A stretch of 64,000 nucleotides of DNA from Magnolia sinica (Eukaryota > Streptophyta > Magnoliopsida > Magnoliales > Magnoliaceae), in assembly GCF_029962835.1 (NCBI RefSeq), contig NC_080582.1, positions 23,816,032-23,880,031 on the forward strand. The letters are read 5' to 3'. Below, piece by piece: positions 2,101 to 52,731 of this stretch. Position 1 is the first letter of the stretch. Each line of letters opens with the position of its first letter. A program made the position numbers and the translations under genes. Below the pieces are notes generated by a model. That model worked only from the letters and a program-made list of their open reading frames with translations, did no database searches and was not told the origin of the DNA.

Positions 2101-2339
2101 GAAATCCGCATCCTCTTTCCGGTGATGTAGTCACGTGAGCTTTGAATCTGCCCCGTGCGAAATGAGCTAATGAAACAGATGGACGGAGTGGATATAACAC
2201 ATACATCACAGTGGCCCCACGGATCTTAGGGCCGCATGAATCCGCGACCGAAAAAAGCAGCTATCATTTCAGAAATTCAAATTTCCAAAAATTTTTTTAA
2301 AAAAAGAAGAAGAAGAAGAAGAAACGGAAAACTCGCCGT

Positions 2340-2675
2340 TTCAACGACGGCGTCGTAGAACCTAACGTCGTCATCTCCGAACGTGTGCGAAGCGCAGACG
2401 GTCTTCCCTTCGATCACTCTCCGGCACTCCCCGTCCTGTAACTGTACAGATGTCGGCCGAAACCGTTCCGCGAAATCGTCCAACGCTTTCGGGTCCTCGA
2501 AATCGGACGGCCCCAATCGCTTGTCGGACTCGTCTCCGAAGTCTAAGAACTTCACCGTCAGCGTCTCGCCCTCCAGGACGAGACGGACGCCGTACCATGC
2601 GTCGTCGTCGTACTCTCGGAAATCCAGAACGGAGGGAGGGACATCGGCGGTAATATCGGGCGGTTTGGAGGACAT
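2340..2675 (-). CDS. SAWADEE-like (tandem-Tudor-like) domain protein, first exon or gene fragment
   Basis: Reading from the ATG at 2675, about 110 residues look like real protein. The order is a short S/P-rich start, DAWYGV, a VKFLDFGDESD segment, SVQLQDGEC, G-TVCAS and DVRFYDAVVE. That succession (DxxWYxV, acidic turn, RxxSV, EC, GxxVCA, FYDAxV) matches the SAWADEE fold. In SHH1 this domain reads histone H3K9 methylation for RNA-directed DNA methylation. This assignment is from memory of the motif pattern and was not searched. The upstream in-frame extension to 2831 is probably 5' UTR. After FYDAVVE the frame runs into a poly-Leu/Lys tract, so an intron probably starts near 2335-2345. A weak GC-type donor is possible there. 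No later exon is visible down to position 1. They may lie outside the window beyond the nested repeats, or the gene may be truncated. Confidence 0.5.
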
Positions 2676-2831
2676 TTTCTGGTGATTGAAGAAGAAGACG
2701 AGGGGCTTCGGGCGGAAGGGTTGCATTGATGGGACGAAAGAAGAGTAATTATTTGGAGAAATACTATGATACTCTGGCGGACTGTGATGGATGATACACA
2801 GGCAGTTAGAAACTGAAATTGCATGGTTCAA

Positions 2832-5799: not shown

Positions 5800-6330
5800 A
5801 GTGTGAGTACGTGTCGTGCGAAGAGGAGTGATGACAGTCCTCGAGATCTAAGTTGTACAAACGACGACTCAAAGGAGATCAAAGTTACATCGACCCATAA
5901 TAATGTATTTATCATATCTACACCGTTCTTCCATTTGGCGAGATTATTTTAGATCTTTATCTAAAAAAGGAATAATTTCCAAGGTTCAATTGGATCACAC
6001 TACAAATAGCAATAGGACAATTATTCTCACCGGTAAAACATTCATAGGACCACTGTAACTCGTATTTTCCATCCATTTTGTTCATAAGGTCACACGGACC
6101 TAGATGAAGAGAAAAAACAAATATCATATTGATTTAAAATTTCCGTGACCCCTAAAAGGGTTTAAATGATAGGCGTTCAATCCTCCCCTCTAAAATACAG
6201 TGTGGTCCACTTGATTTTTGGATCATTCTTACTTTTCGGCTCAAGCCTTACTACAAGCTCACCAAGTGGACAGACCGTTTGGATATAACTCATACCTCAT
6301 GATGGGACCCACGGAACTTGGTGATATCAA
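5800..6330. repeat. Foldback repeat (copy 1)
   Basis: Inverted arms built from 'tatttatcatatctacaccgt' and 'gatataactcatacctcatgatgggaccc', with 'ggatcacactacaa' mirrored by 'tacagtgtggtccac'. The copy-2 version is at about 29810-30336. Confidence 0.6.
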
Positions 6331-6341
6331 CGAAAAGTCGA

Positions 6342-6611
6342 TCACCCTCTTCCTATCACTTGGAGACAAATATTTCCAATGCATACCTCTAGAGGATTCT
6401 TGGGGGTTCCAAGGTTGCCCACTTCAAAATCATCAGGTGCAACGTTGACTTTTGAATCAAACTTATTGAGGAGATCCTCGGGTTCGGGAGCCGGGTCATC
6501 GTTTCCCTCATCCTGGACTTCTTCTAAATGCATAAGTTCGAAGTCTAGTTCTATATCAAAGTCATAAATGTCAATTTTGGCTTCATGCAACTCTTTACAT
6601 GAGTCTGACAC
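6342..6611 (-). pseudogene. Fragment of a Ty3/gypsy-like polyprotein (copy 1)
   Basis: An 89-codon frame reads an acidic stretch (HLEEVQDEGNDDPAPEPEDLL) and then EVGNLGTPKNPLEVCIGN. The NLGTxxxPxxVxIG pattern resembles the linker before reverse transcriptase in Tat/Athila-lineage gypsy elements, where a similar NLGTEEDPR segment occurs. No protease, RT or integrase follows. This is a remnant, and the lineage is tentative. Confidence 0.4.
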
Positions 6612-7618
6612 TTTATTGCATATGGTTTTTGAAAAGTTTTCTGATTTTTGAGTATTTTTATTTTAATGTTGTTGGTTTTTGTAGGTTTTATTCTATTTTA
6701 GGTTTTGTAGATTTTCTATCGTTTTTTTTTTGTTTTGAGGATTTTCTATTGTTTTTAAGTTTTGAGAATTTTCTATTTTTTGGGGATTTTGATAGTTTTC
6801 AATTGTTTTTGGTTTTTGAGGGTTTTTTAGATTTTTTGTAATAACTTGAATTAATCTTGACCATCCAATTTTAACCATTGATCGACATACCAAACTAATC
6901 CAATATGAGCATTGATTTACATGATCAACCTATCCAATCTTAATTGTTGACTTGAACAAATCCAAATCCAACCTTCCATTAATTAATAAATTCAACTATG
7001 CATCTGACCATCCTCCAATGATACACCCATCTAACCATCTACATGCTTAGAACATTCACCCATCCATACATCCCACCACCAAATTGACCATCCATCTTCC
7101 TAAGTTGTATGGCCACCTATAATCCTACCCCTTTATTTGACCACATACCTAACGTGGGGTCCATACTAAAGATGTGCACACCACTTCTTTTGAAAATGAC
7201 CATTCATCACCATTTTTGTTTAACCCATCCTCGTATACTACCTGTCCATCTCACCACCAATTAACATGTATATCATAAAATCTAGCCCTTGATCACACAC
7301 GAGCCCATTTAACCGTATATTTATCCATCATCTATTTGTACATCCATCCGTCAATGCATGCATCATAGCTAACACACCATGTATAACCATCACATGCATA
7401 CACCTTTCACTCATGTGGCATGTATGCACCATATGCATACACCTCATGTCCACACACGTGGCACACATATGGCACACGTGTAGTGCAAAACATGTTCATG
7501 AAAAACAAAGCCATGTGGAGCATGTGATCTAAATGGAATGAAAAATGTAACATATGAAAAAGGAAACATAAGAGGTGCCTATTTCACATGTGATACGTAT
7601 GAAAGTAGCTTATAAAAG
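6612..7618. other. T-rich tract then CCATCC-rich, gene-free DNA (copy 1)
   Basis: 6640-6840 is T-rich with many gattttctattg-like repeats. 6900-7500 has many short ccatccat and accatcc motifs. Frames here are low complexity. I see no gene. The same region recurs at 30618-31660. Confidence 0.5.
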
Positions 7619-23899: not shown

Positions 23900-25905
23900 A
23901 TGGCTAGTGAGGATGAAGTCCAACCTAACCCTAGTGCCGGTGCCGGTGCGTCAGCCACTTCACCACTTGTTGTTGAGGGAGAGGGGTCTTCAGTTGCAAA
24001 CAAAGGAAAGAAACGGTCAGCTGTCTGGGATGATTTTGAAGAAGTAGTAGTTAACAATGTCCCTAAGATTAGATGTATGCACTGCAAAAGTCTATATACC
24101 AAAAGTGTCGGGGGGTCGACGTCTCATTTAAACAGACATAGACAAAGCTGTGCAAGGAGACCTAGACTTCCACGTTCAGGCCAACAATTGCTATCATTTA
24201 CAAAGTCCGAAGGATCTGGTTCTGAAGGTACGCTTACCACTCATAAGTTTGAAAAAGAGAAACTAAAGGAGTGGTTTGCAAAGCTTATTATCATTGATGA
24301 GCAGCCATTTAAGATGGTAGAGAGTGAAATATTTATGGGATACAGCAAATACCTTAATCCTCAGTTTGAGAAGGTCTCCCGTGTTACTGTGAAGAGGGAG
24401 TGCATGAAGATGTATGCCAGTGAGAAAATGAAGTTGAAAGCAGTTTTAGATTCGGTTTCAAGGGTAAGCTTGACGTCTGATATGTGGACGGCGCAAAATC
24501 AAAGAAAGGGTTACATTTCATTGACTGCACACTATGTTGATGAAAATTGGAAACTCTGTAAGAGAATATTGAACTTTCGCCACCTTCCACCTCCCCATTC
24601 CAGTCTGGTTATTTCAGATTGCATTTACAACTGTCTATGAGATTGGGGCATTGAAAAAAAAGTCGTTCATTAACTTTAGATAATGCTTCGACAAATGACA
24701 GTGTCATACGATTCTTACGTAACCGGTTCAAGGTAACCGACAGTTTATTTTTTGAGGGAAAAATATTTCATGTTCGGTGTTGTGCACACATTCTCAACTT
24801 AATTGTACAAGAAGGGTTGAGATCAATTGACCAAACTATAGAGAATGTGAGGGAGAGTGTGAAGTACATAAGAGGCTCGCCGTCAAGATTGAGTATATGG
24901 AATGACATCGTCCAACGTTTGAATTTGACGTCTCCAAAAACGTTGAAGCTAGATGTATGCACGCGTTGGAATTCCACTTTTGAGATGTTGGATTCAGCTC
25001 TGGAATTGAAACATGCCTTTCCAGAATATGCAGCGCGTGATAGAACATATGCTTGGTTGCCTACTGATGATGATTGGAGCAAAGCAAAAGAAGTTCACAA
25101 ATTTTTGAAGGTTTTTTATGATTGTACGAAAATATTTTCTGGCAATAAGTTTCCTATAGCAAATATGTTTTTTCCATTTGTGTGGAAGATCAAGAATGCC
25201 CTAAAGAAAGCTGCCGATGACGGTCCATTTTTTCTCCAAATCATGACAAGTGGTATGCAAATGAAGTTCAATAAGTACTGAGATGATTATCATTTAATAA
25301 TGTCCTTAGTTGTTGTTCTTGATCCTCGTCGTAAGATGAGTTATGTTAAGTACATCTTCACAAGGATTTATCCTACTGAAAAGGTAATATCTGAAACTTC
25401 GAAGGTTCGTGACGCAATCGAAGCATTGTACAACGCGTACATAACCACAGTGTCCACACCAAGCGTTTCTGAAGTTAGATCGCAAGTTGCTTCAAGCTTT
25501 GACGATGATGATTTCATGTCTTTCTTAGAAAAAGAAAATACAGATACAAGTACGAAAGAATCAGAGTTAGACATGTATCTCAAAGAGTCGGTCATACTAC
25601 GGCAGGATTCAGAGTTTGATGTTTTGGAATGGTGGAAATTGCGAGTTAGTGAAGGAAAATATCTTACACTATCGACGATGGCACGAGATATTTTATCAAT
25701 TCCTATTTCAACAGTGGCATCGAAATCTGCGTTTAGCACAGGGAGCAGGGTCGTGAGCAAGACTAAAAGTTCCCTTGCACCAGATACAGTAGAAGCATTA
25801 ATTTGTACACAAGATTGGTTGCGTCCGAGTCTAGGAGGTGTTCTTGATGAAGAAGATGAGGAGAATGTGAATGAAGCCGCAACACATGAAACAACAGCAA
25901 TATGA
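23900..25905 (+). pseudogene. hAT transposase, broken by stops and a frameshift
   Basis: The reading starts at ATG 23900. A BED-type zinc finger follows (W43, C59, C62, H76, then H80/C84). Next come the plant hAT core (TSDMWTAQNQRKGYISLTAH, LDNASTND, CCAHILNLIVQEG) and the C-terminal hAT dimerisation segment (SELDMYL, FDVLEWWK, ARDILSIPISTVAS, ALICTQDWL). The family is RICESLEEPER/DAYSLEEPER-like. Damage: TGA at 24638-24640, a frameshift at about 24655-24670, and TGA at 25279-25281 in place of an expected Trp. The codon at 25723-25725 is AAA (Lys) where the conserved (S/A)-E-SAFS Glu is expected. By analogy with Hermes this is a catalytic acid. It is not expected to make active transposase. 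Confidence 0.9.
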
Positions 25906-25978
25906 TGGATGTTTGGGATGGATGTTATGATCTTCTTAGTTTATTTGAATTTGCAAATGTTGTAATGGGTACTCTTTT

Positions 25979-26165
25979 GACTTTTATTTTTATTTATCTG
26001 TTATGTTGAAGGATATTATGCAAGCTGCGCAATGCATTTCTACATCTGTCTGCTGACTTTTATTTTTATTTATTTGTTATGTTGATGGATGTTATACAAG
26101 CTGCGCAATGCATTTTTACATCTGTTTACTGACTTTTATTTTTATTTATCAGTTATGTTGACTTT
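25979..26165. repeat. 76-bp tandem repeats between the two hAT-block ORFs
   Basis: Units start at 25979, 26055 and 26131 (partial). Each begins gacttttatttttatttat and includes 'caagctgcgcaatgcattt'. It lies in the spacer that would hold the transposase 3' end and the promoter of the next ORF. Confidence 0.85.
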
Positions 26166-26259
26166 TATTATTTTTTAATCCATAAATTGCTTTTATCTTA
26201 TGTCGATATTTCATTATTGTTAAAAAGCCTAAAATACTTTTCCAACACAATATATAGAT

Positions 26260-26898
26260 ATGTCTTCAAGCGAACCATCGATTAACGTTTGGGACTATGG
26301 TTCCTTAGTCCATTCTCCAAAGTCTGGAAAGTTCAAGATTTTGTGTAATTTGTGTGGAGCCAAGTTTGTTAATAAAACTAATCGGCTTAGATTACACTTA
26401 TCCTGTCGGGGTGGAGATGCAAGACCATGTCCTAAAGCCTCAAAAGAAATCCAAGTTATTTTCCAAGCAGTTCTTGATTCAAACAAAAAAGCTTCCACTC
26501 CTCAATCCAAACTTTCTGAGGCAGAGAAGGAAGCTAAACTATTAGCATTGGAAGAAGAACAATTTCAACTCGCCTTAAAGCGCAGTATGGAAGAAGCTTC
26601 TACACATCAGCGATGTCCTCCAAGACCACATGATGTCGAAGCAGCTTCAAGCTGCACGGGTAAAGAGAAAAATAATAAGAATTCAGCTAAGTTTCTCTTC
26701 AGTCTGGCTGCATTTTACAGGACGTTGGGAACTACGTATAAATCTTCTCACAAACATAGTTTGAAAAATCTAATTCAAACTATACAAGAGGAGGGCGATA
26801 AAAAGCTATCTCCATCTTCTGAAGAGGGAGAGGTGAATGAGTACGTATACGAAGATTTATGTAGCAGCTCGGGCTCAGATGAATCTCCTCGACAGTAG
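26260..26898 (+). CDS. BED-like zinc finger plus ubiquitin-interacting motif protein (hAT block ORF2)
   Basis: An intact 212-codon frame with ATG at 26260. Residues 24-60 form a BED-like zinc finger: C29, C32, an NRLRLHL helix with H46, and C57 in GGDARPC. Similar fingers begin many plant hAT transposases. Residues 98-112 read EEEQFQLALKRSMEE. This fits the ubiquitin-interacting motif consensus (acidic run, F102, A105, S109, E112). A basic, lysine-rich middle (about 134-180) and an acidic, serine-rich tail (ESPRQ end) follow. It lacks the catalytic and dimerisation parts of a transposase. It lies 355 bases after the transposase remnant on the same strand and may have been the second gene of the element. 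Alternatives are a captured host gene fragment or an unrelated truncated hAT. Its function is unknown. Confidence 0.65.
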   Translation: MSSSEPSINVWDYGSLVHSPKSGKFKILCNLCGAKFVNKTNRLRLHLSCRGGDARPCPKASKEIQVIFQAVLDSNKKASTPQSKLSEAEKEAKLLALEEEQFQLALKRSMEEASTHQRCPPRPHDVEAASSCTGKEKNNKNSAKFLFSLAAFYRTLGTTYKSSHKHSLKNLIQTIQEEGDKKLSPSSEEGEVNEYVYEDLCSSSGSDESPRQ

Positions 26899-42439: not shown

Positions 42440-43941
42440 ATGGACGTAAACCTGTGGATAATAGTTTCCATGGTGGTGGGAATGATGTTTGTCGCATCGG
42501 AAAGACTACGAAGGCCAAAATCAACAATGAAATTGCCGCCGGGACCGCCTAAATTGCCAATAATTGGGAACTTGCACCAGAACCTGTGCCAGCTCGGTGG
42601 TGGTAATGAATTGATCCACATCGCCTTATTCAAAATGTCACAGAAGTATGGTGGGATTATGACAGTGTGGTTAGGCATGAAACCGACTATTATCGTAAGC
42701 AATCATGAAGGAGCTTGGGAGGTTCTTGTAAACAAGTCCACCGACTATGCGTCACGAATGGTCCCTTACATGTCTAAATATGTCACTGCTAACTGGACAA
42801 CGCTTTTCTCCTCCGATCATGGTCCATACTGGCAATCCCTTCGAAAAGGTGTCCAGGCCTTTGCTATGAATCCATCAGCCATCTCTACTCAAACAGTCTC
42901 AAGAAAATGAAGCGGTTGTCATGACACAAACAATCCAAGAACAAGCTATGACCAATGGCGGAATTACCCGCCCCTTGGTCTACATTCGACACAACACAAT
43001 ACGGGTGGTTGGGCGCCTTTGTTTTGGCCCTGACTTCAACAATGAGGGATTTGTTATTGGCATAGACCCTCTTATCGACGATGTCATCAACCTATCCAGT
43101 CTTGCCCATTTTAACGATGCTTTTCCCTTCACTCGCTACATCCCGGGCCTGCGGGGTTCATTTAGACAAGTATTTGAAATTCGTGATCGTATCATGTCGA
43201 TGATACAGCCAGAAATCAGTCGCTGCCAATCATCGAAATCGCCATGCACCACTTGCTACTTGCATTTCCTCCTCTCACATGATTATCCGATGGAAACCAT
43301 CATATTTTGCTTATTCGAAATTTTCTCTCTCTGTTGATAGCACATCGTCTGCGACTGCTTGGGCTCTAGCATGCCTTATACGAAATCCTGAAATCCAACA
43401 GAAGCTCTTTAAAGAAGTAAGTGGAGAAGATGAGAAGAGAGAGAGGGTGAGTGTAGATCAAGTGAGTAAGATGCCATATCTTCAAGCTGTAGTGAATGAA
43501 GTGTTACGGATGAAGCCGATTGCACCTCTCGCCATTCCCCACAAGACGGTGAACGATACCACATTGACGGGTTTGAAGATCGACGACGGTACTGCTGTTA
43601 TGGTAAATATCTATGCTGTCCATCATGATCCAAAGGTCTGGGATCATCCAGAGAGGTTTATGCCAGAGCGGTTCATGAACGAAAATGCACATAATGTAAG
43701 CTTGGCCATGGAACAGTCATTTTTGCCGTTCGGAGCAGGTAGGTGAATTTGTGCAGGAATGGAGCTGGGAAAGGTTCAGGTGGGCCTCACCCTAGCCAAT
43801 CTGATTAACAGGTTTGAATGGGTTGCTGCTGATGGGGATGGGCCTGACATGACCGATGATTTTACTGCTCTTCTCAGGATGAAAGAGCCCCTCGTGGCAG
43901 GTATCACGCTTCGTACTAACCTTGGAACCACACCCTCTTGA
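42440..43941 (+). pseudogene. Cytochrome P450 (A-type-like) pseudogene, intronless
   Basis: A nearly full-length P450 (about 500 codons) is spread over three frames. It has an N-terminal membrane anchor (residues 3-20), a proline hinge LPPGPPKLPIIGN (32-44), C-helix WQSLRKG, an I-helix remnant DSTSSATAWALA near 43340, the ExxR motif (NEVLR near 43500), PERFM, and the haem loop FLPFGAGR at about 43720-43743. Breaks: a frameshift near 42890-42905 (TQTVSRK then stop), another near 43315-43330, and TGA at 43744-43746 just before ICAG in the haem-binding loop. That TGA is consistent with CGA to TGA. The frame resumes at once and ends with TGA after 43938. No intron interrupts it, unlike most A-type P450 genes. 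I cannot name the CYP family with confidence. Confidence 0.9.
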
Positions 43942-45115: not shown

Positions 45116-45684
45116 ACTGAATAAATTCGAGAGAAAAGTACTCATGTAATATTTAAAACCAAACTACTTTTTTAGTTTTTCCTTGATAAATATATTGTTT
45201 ATCAAACAAACTTATTTATTGAATAAGTAAAAATCAAGATAAGTTGCTTAAGTGAAGTGTGAACTAATAGTGGGGTCACTACAACAAAATAGGACTTTAC
45301 AGGCGGTCAAAACAGAAAACCGCTGCTAAAGGATTTACTGGCGGTCAGGAAACTGCCGGTAAATCTTTTACCGGTGGCCATTAGCTTTTACCGGTGCTTT
45401 TGCAGGATGCCCCTAAATTGTCAGTTATTTATTACATGGGGCGAAAATGAGAAAAGGCTACAAATGAAATCCGTATCAAGATATCTTAGGGTTACCAACA
45501 ATCCGTAGCCTTTGGAAGTTCTGCTGTTTCAGTGTTTCCTGCCCACTTCCACCACTGGGAAAAAAAATAAAAAAAAACGATTGCAGGTAAATCTGGCCTG
45601 ATGCCATTTGAATGCTGTAACTCACCTACTGTAAAGCAGCATACATACCACCAATCTAGACTGTCCAAAACACAGGCCATGTTG

Positions 45685-45807
45685 TGCAGAGTAAGTCAGG
45701 TTCCTCAGCCTTGCAGCCTTTGGGAACAAAGTTGCACTTTCTCCATCCGACTCCATCATCATAGGTTTGCTCAAGTATATTTGGCCAAAGCCGATTCTGT
45801 AGATTGT
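45685..45807 (-). pseudogene. NRPB2: Captured exon fragment of RNA polymerase II second-largest subunit
   Basis: After a splice-acceptor-like ATGCAG (plus strand ctgcat at 45808) the frame reads TIYRIGFGQIYLSKPMMMES and then DGESATLFPKAARLRNLTYSA. This is the conserved N-terminal part of eukaryotic RPB2 just before the segment beginning PLYVDV. Homology stops sharply after TYSA, where the frame becomes unrelated. About 41 of roughly 1,190 residues are present. The piece cannot be functional. Intron sequence at its 5' side shows it was taken from genomic DNA and not from mRNA. Confidence 0.85.
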
Positions 45808-48189
45808 CTGCATCGAATCAAATACATTTACATAGATATTAACAATGTTAGCAGCAAAAGAGGACCTCCAAAACCTTAAGAGCTGACGAAGGTGTTCAGA
45901 TCTAGTAACCATAAGAAAACATTGTACTTTAAATGGTTGATTTAATGTTCATTGCCATCAGCAAGAGCTACCTCCCAATGATGGATTCATTTGTTGCAGA
46001 AAATCTCCCTAGTATCATACATGAGATGTACCAACAGTAGTACTATTGAAAAAACAAAGAAATCAAATAAATATTTATCATATATACTTTAAATGGGCAT
46101 GAAGAAAGCCAACGTTGGTATCTCCTGATCAAAAGTTTGGTCCTTAAAAGTTTAAAGAGGCATGAAGTGAGGCTGTGCCTTAGTTGCAGGAAACCATCTA
46201 CAAAGCAGGAAACATGTTTCCTAGGAAAAAATGGGTTTGATTTTCATTTTATGAAAGAGGTGGAACTGGACAGAAACTCAAAGAAACATCAGGGAATAAT
46301 ATTTCCCTGGGGGCACTAGAAAAGATATTTCATTTTAAAAGGTATCCTCTCTCATCTTTGATTGATTTCTTCCATCATTACTTACAAGTAAATCATCAAT
46401 GGGTTCTAATTTAGAGCTTTTAATAGAAAATTAGAAATCTCAAAAAGAAGGCATAGTTAAAACTCCAAGAAGTTCCAAAGCAGCTCAAGAGACTTTTATG
46501 AGTTGTCTCAAATGGGCTGGACACTTCATACCAGCAAAAATCATAGATCCAAAACTTTGATTGGACGAGGAAAACCTAGAAGAAAGAAAAATTCCTCTTT
46601 TATTTTGTTTTTTTTTTTTTTAAAGAAAGGTAACAGAAGATTGAGTTCATGATTACACTTGTGCATCCTACAAACGTTGGTAGGAACCAGCTCCAACCTA
46701 TCATTGATGAGGCTACGGGGAGTTGATGGCGTGTCAAGTGTTCAGTGTAGATGCTTTGGGCAGCAAGTAATGGAACTCCCAAAGGAAAAATCATTAACAA
46801 TATGATATAACGTTGAAAAGATGTGTTTGACAAATTGAATTCTTTATCAGACATGATATGCTAAAAGAGATTTCATAAAGAAAATACGAGGTGGAGAATA
46901 ACAGAATCTGCTGTTCTGCCACTTATATACTTGAAAGTGGAGAATAACAGAATCTGCTGTTCTGCCACTTATATACTTGAAAGTAGGGAATCTTGCTTGC
47001 TTGCATTTTGGCTGTCATTGTACTCAACCTGAAATAAATCCCTATGTTAATATCAAATTAGAAGATATAAAAAAGAACAAAAGAAGTGTATTCATTTCTA
47101 GGAAAGAAGAAGATCACTAGGAAACAAAAATTGATGTTTCAAGAATCTTAGAGATGAATAGTTTTCGCTTTTTAGTAGGTACATGGGGCAGTTGTAAGAA
47201 GCAGGAATTATTCTAAATAAGTTATGTGAGCTAATCAAAGCAGGCATTGCACCATTCCCCACCTGCACATGGGAACAACATTAAGAAAGAAAAATAAGAA
47301 CCCAATTCAAGTAAGAAAGAAATTCTGAATCAACTGTAGAAAAATCAGAAGATAAGAGAAACCCATCTCAGAAATATTAAGAAAACTCTAGCTATGGGAT
47401 TGTGTGCTTTCCTTCAATCTTGGAGCAGGGTTTTGTCTCTTTGCTGGTTGGAGAGGTTATCCCTTTCCCCATTTTCATATTGACAAGATCGTGGGTCTCA
47501 TCTGATGATCAGCTTGGATCTTGTACGTGTGCCATGTTCACATATATGGCTTGTTACCTGTAACAAGCCGTGTATTGGATTTAACCAATGTCTAGAAGAT
47601 CCTTCTGAAAAAAGAAAAAAAATAAAAGAAAAAAGAAGTGTATTGGATTTAAAAATTTTGTAGAAGCAATCCTGGAGCAATGTTCTTGACCCAGAAAACA
47701 AACCTGCAAATGTTGTAGGGAAATTGTTTTCAGAAAAAAGGTTTCACTACTTCCGAACTTCAGTTGGGAAATCTGTAAATACAAAGGGAAAAATAAAATA
47801 AAATAAATAATTGTGTGGCTGGAAGAAAGGGCACAAGACACGGTCCCAAGGTTTCCTTGGGTTCATATGCCATGTAAAAGGTCAACGCTTTCTAAGAAAA
47901 ATATGAAATGGCAGTGTCGCTGAGTTACAGACAGTTGAAATTCCTAAGGGACAAAACCTCGATTTGACAGCGAAGTTAGTAACCACCTAAGTTTCTCATC
48001 TTTTTCTACGAAGTCCATTTTAGGGGGGGAAAAAAAAAAGGAAGACTACAAAGGCTGAGACTGAGCTTTTTACATCATAATTTTCTATATTAACTATTGG
48101 AAGAGACTGAGCTTCAATGAGGATGACCATTGAAAGAGACAAAAAATTCAACGCCTTGAACAATTACAGCAGCATAGTTGAGTACTCAC
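45808..48189. other. CACTA interior between the NRPB2 and CAND1 fragments
   Basis: AT-rich, intron-like DNA with T-runs near 46605. The open frame at 46600-46854 (-) has no recognisable motif. I see no further gene piece, although unrecognised exons could be hidden here. Confidence 0.4.
46891..46982. repeat. 46-bp tandem duplication inside the CACTA element
   Basis: Two nearly identical units start at 46891 and 46937 (gtggagaataacagaatctg..). Confidence 0.9.
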
Positions 48190-48360
48190 CATCCAAATCG
48201 GATTTAAGGTACGGAACAATGAAAGATGAGGAGTTCACTTGATCAAGGTAGCGCTATCCAGCAACGTGTCAACACATTCAAAAGCAGCTTTCCTAAGCTC
48301 AAGGCCATCGTCTACAATGTGCTTAAAAGGACCAAGATCGACTGTCCTGATCAATTCTTG
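48190..48360 (-). pseudogene. CAND1: Captured exon fragment of CAND1
   Basis: After an acceptor-like GATGCAG the frame reads [18 protein letters not shown], then [17 protein letters not shown] and, after a one-base frameshift, [19 protein letters not shown]. It then meets a good splice donor (G|GTGAGT, plus strand actcac 48184-48189). This matches one exon of the HEAT-repeat protein CAND1, which exchanges F-box modules on cullin-RING ubiquitin ligases. The single exon, with both splice borders and a frameshift, points to DNA-level capture followed by decay. Confidence 0.88.
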
Positions 48361-48675
48361 CTGCATCAGAAACAGTAAATTACCAAAAGGTGACCATCAT
48401 ATTTCTAAATTGTTCACTAAAAGAACTGTTGGGGGTAAGATGGAAGAGTCAATGAGAAGGAAACTAAGCCAGGCCTCTGGGTCAGCCCATACCTGGCTGC
48501 CCAATTTTAGCAAGAATCAAGCATGTGACGGGCATAGACATCTAAAGCTCATGCCTGGTTCAGTTCATACTCTATAGGAACATAAGCTAGCAAAAACAAT
48601 GAAAGCACCTCATCTCAATAAATGTTGCAGCTCATTTTCTTGTAGTATAGACAGGAAAAGAAAATCTCCTGTACC

Positions 48676-48760
48676 CACTACAACGAAAAAAGGCCTTTAG
48701 CCTCAGTTCAAAACCGTGGCTAAAAATGTTAAAAACTGAGGCTAAAGCCTTTAGGTTGGC
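48676..48760. mobile_element. Second CACTA terminus nested in the first
   Basis: CACTACAACGAAAAAAGGCC at 48676 is followed by inverted 'cctttagcctcagttc' / 'aactgaggctaaagcc' motifs, as at the ends of other plant CACTA elements. No matching right end was found, so this is a fragment or abortive product. Confidence 0.6.
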
Positions 48761-49262
48761 AATCAGCTGATTCTCTAAAACTAGATAATTGAGGTCTCCA
48801 CATCACAAATATGCCAAATTTCTGTCAGATGAAAAGAACTTATTCCACAAAAAGCCAAGTAGACCTAGCTACTAATTGCATTGAAATAATCACTCCAATG
48901 TCAATTAACCCATCAATATCTCAGGATCCAATCCTAAGCAAAAAAAACCAAATAGAGTTGTGAGCAAATCCAAAGCAAATCAATGCACAAAACAATAGAA
49001 AGGGAATCAAACGGATAGAACTGACTCCTAATTATACTATCCATCTCCCCGTAGAAAATTTTCGGTAAAGTACAATTTGGTTTGGGACTATTGAGCATAC
49101 ATCAATTCTCAGATAACAAACAGTCATTCCTTCAAGGAATAATCCACCCCGGCTTTCATAAATCAAAATTGAGTGATGAAGATATGCCTCAACTCACTGG
49201 AGATGGTTCACATTACTGGGTCCAGAGATTATGAGTCTTATGACAAAGGATGGGGATTTCAC
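48761..49262. other. CACTA interior between the CAND1 and ZDS fragments
   Basis: AT-rich, intron-like sequence. No protein similarity recognised. Confidence 0.4.
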
Positions 49263-49397
49263 CTTTTTCATCAGGCGAAAGAGGTTGCTGTAGCAACCGA
49301 AGAAGACATGAAGTCCCATCTCGATGTGATTCCCACGCTTATCTACAAATGAGCCCACTTTTCCACCAATGAAAGACCGTGAATCGTAAATATGAAG
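49263..49397 (-). pseudogene. ZDS: Captured exon fragment of zeta-carotene desaturase
   Basis: Read from 49397 downwards after a CTAG acceptor, the frame gives [37 protein letters not shown] and LFRLMKK. It then meets the donor AAG|GTGAAA (plus strand tttcac 49257-49262). This is the strongly conserved segment just after the dinucleotide-binding site of plant 15-cis-zeta-carotene desaturase, a plastid carotenoid enzyme. About 45 residues are present with no frame damage. Phytoene desaturase is related but has a different motif here. Confidence 0.9.
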
Positions 49398-50006
49398 CTA
49401 GGAAGAAAAGTTAATGCAGAAAAAGAAAAGACAGCAGGTATGGGCTTGAAGGAAGAAGGCTTTACAGTAGAAGCAAGCATGCCATCCAAACATATTTATC
49501 AATCTATGCAACTCGAAGACTTGAACAGCAAAAACCCTCTGTTGACTAGCAGAAGTAATAAGAAACTCAGGCCAAAATCCTAATCTTGCTAAATTATTTA
49601 AGACCAAAAGAAGAATGTCACAGACAATGACAAACAGATATAATGAGTAATCACACATTAAACTAATGAAAACTTTGGGTGTACCTGCTGATTTTTTCCA
49701 GGAATTCCTTGGGACATTAGTCTAGGACCCTAGATTTAGGAGGAACTGAAATTCATGGAGAAAAAGAAAAACAGATGGTCTAGTAATCCAATTAGTGTGG
49801 TTTCTTTTGCTATGCTCCATCTTAAAAGGGCCCATGACTGGGACAATCTGGATTGATTTCCATAGTCCATGTGTGTCATGTGTAGCTCCCAATAATCATA
49901 ATTCACAAAAGGCACTTTCTTTCCCTTTTTTTTTTTTTTTTTTTACTAATGTGGATATCAGGTCAGAAAAATAAAAATAGCATAAATCGCAAAAACAGTT
50001 AAACAC
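49398..50006. other. CACTA interior between the ZDS and GGH fragments
   Basis: The plus-strand frame at 49392-49583 (63 codons) has no recognisable motif. A T-run lies at 49927-49945. Probably non-coding. Confidence 0.4.
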
Positions 50007-50122
50007 CTTGAAAATCTCCTGCACAGTCTCATAGTATAAACCAGTTTTAGCCCATCCACCAGTAAATAGCACACTGTTCACCAGGTTGAGCTTCTGCAGT
50101 AGATGAACATTGTACGTCAAAG
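50007..50122 (-). pseudogene. GGH: Captured exon fragment of gamma-glutamyl hydrolase
   Basis: After a TTTCAG acceptor (plus ctgaaa 50123-50128) the frame reads LTYNVHLLQKLNLVNSVLFT and then GGWAKTGLYYETVQEIFK. A donor AAG|GTGTTT follows (plus aaacac 50001-50006). The NxVLFTGGWAKxGLYY segment is typical of plant gamma-glutamyl hydrolase, which trims folate polyglutamate tails in the vacuole. About 38 residues, one exon, no catalytic Cys or His included. Confidence 0.88.
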
Positions 50123-52050
50123 CTGAAATTCATGCCACCTATTTATCATAAAAACTAGTGCAAATAGAAGGAGAAGCCAACCAGCATCTTCAAATAATAA
50201 CTATTTAATGAAAGAACATTCAAGAACCTAAGATGTGGTTGCACACACAACTAAATTGGATTTCAATAGTGAGGTAATCAAATTGCAACAACCTCCATTA
50301 GTATTTGTATGAGGAAGTAGCCCCCAAACTGCAATTATGCCCTGTTCAGCATGGTGGATGTTTGGATGTTGAATCTGTCAGAGTATTGTACAATTCCGCT
50401 TCTCCATAGTTTTGGTTTCCTTTTTCCTGCAGGCTAAAGGAATTTCTGGGAGGTTTGCGATCCATTTCAGGACAGAGCCAAAGGCCTCCACTTGCTTGTC
50501 TGTTAAGGTGTCAAACAAAACAGTCAACAGATATAGATAAAAGGGAATGAGTTCCCAATAGGAGGAGCTCAGCTATGCCCACAGCCATACATACCATGGC
50601 AATAACATTTGTTTCTCATCCAACATGGGCAATAAGAAAAAAAGAAAAAAGTTTAGCCTAGAGGCAATACTCCAAAACTCATTGTACGCATGTGTTACAT
50701 ACCCACAGCTATAATTCACTGAAGCCATACTATTTCTCTAATGGCCTTCAATAATAACCTTGCGAGAGACCTCAATGTTGGCAGTTTTTCACCCAAGACA
50801 CAAAAATAAGTCCTAACTATGCTACGAAATCAGGACATCCAGAAATGAAGATATTATCTTTCCTTCTAGAGATAGGTAGCACCATACGTCTTCCCATTGA
50901 TGGTGTCCTCTGAGGAGAGTGCCAGTGGTACTGTTGCAGTACATATTCAGTTCAGGAGAGTGCCAATGGCACTGTTGTAGTACATATTCAGTTTTGCGTC
51001 CATCAGTAACAAGAATTTTGAGAATTACATATCTCCATTCTTTATGGGACTTCATTTATGTTGCTCATCAGATATTTCCATATAAACTTAGTAAAACCAT
51101 TGATAAATGAAATGAAACATCTAATTGAATAGAGAAAAATCCGGCAGCAGACCCTCCCCACACATAAGAATGGATCAGTGCAAATGGAGGAATTGATTTA
51201 TTTTCAGCAACGAGATAAACAGAACGAGCATGTTTAGCTAATAGGAAAGGCAAGCTTCACAATCAAAGGACTTACTGTTGTCACAGCTAGCAAATGGACC
51301 GCATCGAGTCAACTCAACAAGTCTTCCTGAGGTGGTGCAAGAACAGGGCCTTCACCCGCACCTACAATAACAAAGAGCGGAGCTCTGCTCTGATTGTCAG
51401 TCCACCACCGTCGCAGATCGCAAAATCACAGGGCCTTCTTCTTTGTTGGCTTCTGTCTTCGATCCTCCATTAAATCCGGCAACCCTCAGAAATCAGCGAC
51501 CCATGCGCCTCAGGCAGCCATTAAATCCGTCATCCTATGACATGGCTTACTCAAATCCTCGATCCAGACCTTCGGCCACCATCTTCTACGGTTGCTCCCA
51601 GTCTCGACTTCCACCCCTGCTCCATCGAGCGTACTCTACTTCCACGCTTCCTACCATGCTAGGGTTTCAAAAACCCCCCTTTCTCCAAATGATGACACTG
51701 ATCTGCCGTTCCAATCGGCGAAAAAGTGGATGGCAATGAGAGCCCGAACCACCTGCTGGAGAAATATCACCTTTGACAATGGTGAGGAGTTCATGCTCAA
51801 GGCAGTCGCCCTTGATCGCAAACAGGAATTGTCAAACTCCTATATAGGGTTTGGAAAAGACAATAAAAGGGATTTGAAATCCCCGTTTATGCACTGGAAA
51901 ATTGCAGAAGAAGAGAGATTAGGGATTTGAAATCCTCGTTTATGCACTGGAAAATCGCAAAAGAAGAGAGCTCCCTAAAAACTAGTGAAGTGGGAAAGGC
52001 AAAAAGAGTTCCCATAACACCATTGGATCGTCATTGGCAATTAATGATTC
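50123..52050. other. CACTA interior right of the GGH fragment
   Basis: An exon-like minus-strand stretch at about 50440-50520 reads LTVLFDTLTDKQVEAFGSVL and then KWIANLP. I do not recognise it. Two 41-bp tandem units lie at 50913-50994, and 53-bp tandem units at 51869-51974 form part of the right subterminal region. The plus-strand frames at 51443-51930 are unrecognised. Confidence 0.4.
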
Positions 52051-52731
52051 TTACATTTGCTGGCAGTTCGTGCTGGTCATCGGCAAAAAAAGTGCCGGCA
52101 ATGGCCCACTTTCTTGTAGTGGGTGTCCTAACAAGCTAACAAAATAAAAAAAAAAGATAAGTTGCTTAAGGCATAAGTAACTTATGTAAAGTAACTTCCG
52201 ATCCAAACATCCTATATAAGTATACACTCTCACGTGTACTTTAAAACTGTTATTTGCCTCTCCCACGTGGTAAGGAGGCATGTGTGTGCGAGATCGGAAC
52301 TGCCTATCTTCATTTTTTAAAGTTCTATAATCATGTGGGCCACATGAATAAAAAAGTAAATAAACGTGGATGAGAAATTGGCTAATTGGTCCGTATATGA
52401 TCAGATGAACTTGTTTTTTAGATCACGATGATTACACGTGTCACTAAAATAGCCGTATGTTTATATGTAGTGGCTTTTTTGTTGTTCATGTCCACAGTGT
52501 CGCTGTGGACACATAAATAAAACCTTCTTATATTACATGGATCTGAAAATTGCTCAATTTAAGTCCTCCCCATGGTCGAGTTCACTCAGTTTTTATTAAT
52601 AGGCGATTACCTTTGTTTGCTGTATTAAATCTACATTTCTGGGTGATATATTGCTCATTTGACCCTTTCAAGATAATTCACACGCCAAAAGGGCCACCAG
52701 CTTTACTTGACTGATCTCAATTTGATATTTA

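Follow-up and report, generated by a model that had tools for sequence, protein, structure and literature searches.

Background

Pack-TYPE transposons are described as growing when neighbouring insertions lose their inner ends and the outer ends are then used (PMC8903248, PMC13317346), and in maize the Pack-CACTA elements are reported to hold more distinct captured loci than any other superfamily compared (PMC8903248). The closest described case that we found is Tgm-Express1 of soybean, a 5.7-kb CACTA element which carries fragments, both intron and exon, from five unrelated genes, lies in an intron of F3H and is spliced into F3H transcripts (PMC1947982). Here we analyze a 6,845-bp transposon at positions 45277-52121 of a 64,000-nucleotide window of Magnolia sinica (C10:23816032-23880031 of a 1.84-Gb assembly with 127 contigs; unprefixed positions are those of this window), which carries pieces of the genes NRPB2, CAND1 and ZDS together with an exon resembling GGH. 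We consider it highly probable that this element is a non-autonomous Pack-CACTA transposon which has grown stepwise and would require transposase from other CACTA elements.

Pack-MULEs and gene-carrying Helitrons, which belong to other superfamilies with other ends and target duplications, resemble the window element in gene-fragment capture and shuffling. The Pack-CACTA and Pack-TYPE elements (Catoni 2019, via PMC8903248 and PMC13317346) are like it in having CACTA ends, a 3-bp target duplication, no transposase, several host-gene pieces and growth by fusion, which is probable for the window element; compared to those described there, the window element is from another genome and has an internal end from another CACTA-like family with the old host flank kept. 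Tgm-Express1 is likewise a CACTA element with pieces of several unrelated genes. Whereas it sits in an F3H intron and is spliced, no host gene was identified around the window element other than cytochrome P450 pieces approximately 1.5 kb to its left.

Results

Element borders and features

The element has CACTA terminal inverted ends with the core CACTACAA. It starts with CACTACAACAAAATAGGAC (CACTACAACAAAATAGG...) and its finish is the reverse complement of CACTACAAGAAAGTGGGCC (CACTACAAGAAAGTGGG...). The triplet GGT stands on both sides, with a probability of 0.018 for a chance 3-bp match, and a 3-bp target duplication is typical of the CACTA superfamily. With CACTA ends common to other copies in the same genome and the GGT duplication, the element is a real transposon; the CACTA ends and the flanking GGT had been noticed in a first-pass annotation made from the letters of the sequence. 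We scanned all 63 of its stop-to-stop frames of 45 amino acids (aa) or longer (the longest being 129 aa) with Pfam and none of them has a transposase domain, in agreement with that annotation; the remaining element frames gave a DUF match below its cut-off and nothing else. In the genome, Transposase_21 domains are abundant (1,669 first-look Pfam candidates, with 150 of the 150 scored exceeding the cut-off), which makes a source of transposase for the element plausible. The features are listed below, and the four protein segments are all on the minus strand, the single strand that had been reported.

45274..45276, no strand: target-site duplication, left, GGT
45277..45480, no strand: outer 5' end, CACTA terminus with GGCGGT/CTGCCGG-type subterminal repeats; several other copies begin at the identical base
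45684..45927, minus: NRPB2 gene piece, comprising intron 45808-45927 and an exon of which only the first 124 bp are present, interrupted at 45684
45931..47387, no strand: module common to other NRPB2-carrying loci
47388..47833, no strand: 446-bp module, contiguous with both neighbours (47233-47990) on C15 (L050, L051) and with the left neighbour on C3; matched on C17
47834..48672, minus: CAND1 gene piece, intron-exon-intron, exon 48190-48360 with a 2-bp insertion and premature stop
48673..48675, no strand: ACC within CAND1 intron sequence, the former target of the internal CACTA end
48676..48754, no strand: internal scar, the 79-bp end of another CACTA-like family that is very abundant
48868..49399, minus: ZDS gene piece, made up of exon 49263-49397 and the intron downstream of it, 94.7% identical to L036
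49634..50575, minus: module present at many loci and containing the GGH-like exon (50007-50122)
52003..52121, no strand: outer 3' end, the exact limit of homology to the copies L014, L015 and L017, whose flanks differ
52122..52124, no strand: target-site duplication, right, GGT

In another copy, L013, homology falls 13 bases short of the element 3' terminus.

The CAND1 piece and the internal CACTA end

The CAND1 segment has matches in PDB (1.8e-13) and Pfam (TIP120, 9.2e-18), which bears out the name it had been given; NCBIfam gave no family for this 40-aa piece. A CAND1 gene, L030 (C4:21094667), contains the exon and then a following exon, as found by profile search, and is continuous with the element over approximately 840 bp, apart from extra DNA in the gene (90% identity at 47834-48548 and 97% at 48541-48672). 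Judged against this gene, the piece retains both splice borders, as had been claimed for at least three of the four segments. The 2-bp frameshift is present in all five element copies compared (window, L010, L031, L032 and L033) and not in the gene. We found CAND1 pieces at eight element-like places, including both C10 copies (the window and its duplicate L010, see below), and a further match at C7:19412823. Two side observations concern these loci. Positions 630-1319 of L030, approximately 690 bp within the CAND1 intron, are not in the element copy, and this extra DNA is probably an insertion later than the capture. In L031, L032 and L033, NEK-type-kinase-like exons, recognized by eye, precede the CAND1 piece, and the joint lies 33 bp inside the CAND1 piece of the window.

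A second CACTA end, CACTACAACGAAAAAAGGCC..., starts at 48676, next to the CAND1 intron. Before this position the element reads ...CTCCTGTACC, with ACC and then CACTACAACG at the junction, and the CAND1 gene reads ...CTCCTGTTTACCAATAATC, i.e. ...CTCCTGTTTACC followed by AATAATC. Since ACC adjoins the internal end and the gene continues from ACC directly into AATAATC, a CACTA element had landed at ACC in CAND1 intron sequence. The family of this internal end has subterminal motifs other than those of the outer ends; of the 40 matches scored (538 candidates), 33 are confined to this end and 16 have 48676 itself as their first base. Past the internal end the CAND1 sequence does not resume, and the ZDS-bearing module comes next. 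The junction between CAND1 intron and internal end is also present in L011 and L032. An internal CACTA end still with its old host flank is the remnant expected under a model of fusion and remobilisation, and it fits the scar that neighbouring or nested insertions moved by their outer ends would leave.

Relatives with different module sets

When the whole element was used as the query, 40 of 988 candidates were scored and yielded 85 matches, which is a lower bound. The left part (45277-47387, with NRPB2) was found whole or partly on C1, C12, C13, C16, C17, C18 and C19, and module combinations vary among the relatives: L033 has CAND1 without ZDS or GGH, L011 has no NRPB2 in the stretch examined, and the C15 and C3 relatives have no ZDS or NRPB2 match among the matches listed. 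On C15, sequence corresponding to 47233-47990 spans the junctions of left part, 446-bp module and CAND1 uninterrupted. An interpretation of the 446-bp stretch as unique captured DNA was dropped, since the module recurs at other loci. As a whole, the left part is 91% identical to L021, where positions 6000-7001, judged by eye, resemble a Gypsy-type retrotransposon inside or beside the left-type copy.

The C3 relative (9.15 kb, C3:93664664-93655512, minus strand, with approximately 1.4 kb between two read stretches known only from its module match) has a 5' end of the window class, the same 3' end and a TTT/TTT duplication. The C15 relative has ACA on the 5' side in one duplicate, and on the 3' side ACT in that duplicate and ACA in the other. 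Together with the window element, these make three insertions in which the two outer end classes occur jointly and are accompanied by a target duplication. We had also considered that two unrelated CACTA families were fused at the outer ends, and dropped this because the C3 and C15 relatives show both end classes together with target duplications. The gene pieces are found elsewhere too, with other partners, and were therefore not all gathered by this copy, which looks like a late mosaic; the single element capturing four genes that the first-pass annotation implied does not agree with this pattern.

NRPB2, ZDS and GGH-like pieces

The NRPB2 segment matches RPB2 in PDB (E 9e-12) and RNA_pol_Rpb2_1 in Pfam (4.5e-11), and its earlier identification stands. 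Three gene loci, all of which carry on into further RPB2 exons in translations read by eye, have identities to the element piece of 96.3% (L026), 93.9% (L027) and 79% over 166 bp (L029). L026 and L027 are NRPB2-like, with several RPB2 exons in 2.5 kb by eye, and are nearer to the transposon piece than L029. The parent exon extends (...LTYSAPLYVDVTKRVIKKGHD...) past 45684, where the element breaks off, so that the piece has one splice border only and is without a donor site; the first-pass annotation had given both borders to at least three of the four segments. Both here (120 bp of intron and 124 bp of exon, L026) and in the CAND1 alignment to L030 introns are included, which upholds, for these two pieces, the view of copying from genomic DNA.

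The best NCBIfam match of the ZDS segment is zeta_caro_desat (9.7e-23), with phytoene desaturase behind it at 7.9e-9, as its given name would require. Its exon was matched at 14 loci, both C10 copies included. Homology to L035 and L036 ends at the acceptor AG (49399), with the downstream intron flank alone in common. These two loci, fetched as ZDS matches, have different neighbouring frames. By eye, frames resembling starch synthase and Kelch are visible in L036, and a ZDS exon lies upstream in L035.

The exon at 50007-50122 has the borders AG and GT in the element and no relevant match in PDB, Pfam or NCBIfam. Its label, presumably correct, comes from likeness to plant GGH sequences and is confirmed by none of these libraries. 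Among the four segment names proposed, NRPB2, CAND1 and ZDS are thus retained and GGH is used as a likeness. The exon has 31 matches in the genome, and in the eight of these 31 loci which we read (L042-L047, L060 and L061) no GGH motifs were seen in other frames. L060 (C4:70.37 Mb) and L061 (C1:12.55 Mb) are 95% alike over 3.1 kb, a longer repeat containing the 49634-50575 module, as would be expected for members of one repeat; in neither was a CACTA end resembling the outer ends of the window element seen. When PF07722 was used to look for the GGH parent, a single locus came up (C19:11921996, with a 251-aa frame), which was not accepted as the parent. Within the same module, 50434-50504 (minus strand) is an open stretch, TDKQVEAFGSVLKWIANLPEIPLA, following AG and a possible fifth captured exon; it matched no family, Pfam included.

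The duplicate on C10

L010 (C10:23.41 Mb), 446 kb away on the same contig, has the element at an identical site between flanks homologous to those of the window copy, and is therefore a segmental duplicate and not a second insertion. Between window and L010, 86 of 6,755 sites differ in the element (1.3%) compared to 180 of 2,856 in the flanks (6.3%; Fisher p = 2e-38), where tandem repeats in the left flank may inflate the flank divergence. The first 69 bases of the element are more flank-like (5 of 68 differ). Gene conversion or gap repair after excision could lie behind the low divergence of the element. L010 is also without 83 bp near the 5' end.

Coding potential

We calculated the ratio of nonsynonymous to synonymous polymorphism (pN/pS) as a pooled pairwise value, for which pairs are not independent and exons are short. 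The GGH-like exon evolves near-neutrally, with a value of 0.90 (18 of the 18 copies given). The value is 0.72 for ZDS (7 of 7 copies), 0.51 for the first 40 codons of CAND1 (6 of 6, gene included) and, for NRPB2, 0.47 among 10 element copies versus 0.03 among three gene loci. Values under 1 could be due to pre-capture history or to weak constraint. When the GGH, ZDS and CAND1 exons are spliced as drawn, they form one open frame of 124 codons, which ends at the CAND1 stop and lacks an ATG in its GGH portion. The donor GT of CAND1 reads GC in L010. Four pieces would share one orientation by chance with a probability of 1/8, so that their common strand is little informative.

Other features of the window

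Pfam identified broken-frame cytochrome P450 gene pieces at 42440-43746, left of the element. At 23900-26898, adjoining a 409-bp tandem repeat, there are fragments of hAT transposase and a weak match to a BED zinc finger that falls slightly short of the cut-off. A frame at 2280-2831 (minus strand) has a SAWADEE domain (Pfam E 3e-22).

Discussion

The stepwise growth of the element is what we infer from the above features. In this process CACTA elements would insert beside or within one another and within genes, their inner ends would be lost or disabled through deletion, and transposase could then mobilise everything between two outer ends as one unit, host DNA too. Internal deletions and further fusions would reshuffle the modules among copies.

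The internal end has a second explanation, which concerns the capture of CAND1 and not the class of the element: the element had already taken up CAND1 when another CACTA element landed inside it and then lost most of its sequence by deletion. We regard this nested insertion as quite possible, while leaning slightly against it. The family of the internal end is so abundant that an insertion anywhere is conceivable, and the second end of this family is not seen in the element; against this, a nested insertion would have CAND1 resume on the far side, where we found the ZDS-bearing module, a difference that deletion could explain too. If nested insertion is true, the internal end is uninformative on how CAND1 was captured. 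That the whole is not one unit, and consists of two unrelated CACTA insertions side by side, would account for finding, elsewhere, portions of the left part (45277-47387) without the right part and the reverse. The GGT at both outer sides and the left/446-bp junction, contiguous on the C15 and C3 relatives with the same 3' end and on C15 continuing into CAND1, make it scarcely credible.

A functional chimeric gene, whose exons are spliced together and whose product or small RNAs act in the host, is very improbable. The pieces share their orientation, three of them stay open for 124 codons if spliced as drawn, and exons of Tgm-Express1 are spliced in soybean (PMC1947982). However, the CAND1 frameshift in five of five element copies, the missing donor of NRPB2 and the near-neutral GGH-like exon make the mosaic protein that the first-pass annotation had thought possible unlikely, and the CAND1 donor is altered in L010. 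The gene pieces are most probably passengers which yield no useful protein. It is also conceivable, though we think it rather doubtful, that the GGH-like, ZDS, CAND1 and NRPB2 modules are cassettes exchanged among CACTA elements with different ends and partners, the duplicates being refreshed by gap repair and a small pool of exons being spread and homogenised genome-wide; the gap-repair part of this is suggested by the divergence of 1.3% versus 6.3% between the two C10 copies.

Several results weigh against a non-autonomous Pack-CACTA transposon grown by fusion. No autonomous CACTA partner with matching ends was identified, and a pre-fusion intermediate, i.e. two intact neighbours, was not among the loci fetched in a search that was not exhaustive. 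No empty site was seen among the 40 right-flank candidates scored (2,838 first-look), where only L010 matched fully besides the window, and L010 holds the element. The outer 5' ends are only loosely alike, with the window being 78% identical to C3 over 37 bp and 70% to C15 over 119 bp, and its first 300 bp being 77% identical to L021 (333 columns). The alignment of pieces to parent genes, proposed as a check on the capture, succeeded for NRPB2-like and CAND1 loci and not for the other two: none of 20 ZDS matches is an evident complete gene and no GGH parent gene was found. The pN/pS of the NRPB2 piece is also below neutral, though 41 codons are very little.

Conclusions

The type of element is already known from Pack-CACTA and Tgm-Express1, and what this locus adds is a readable internal scar and relatives with different modules. 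It is a base-level example of the build-up of a CACTA mosaic, in which three traces can still be read: the intron of the donor gene, the triplet that served as target and an internal end from another family. It also serves as a warning that the number of genes on an element, here four, may exceed the number which that element took up itself, and its relatives with other module sets may allow the steps of growth to be ordered.

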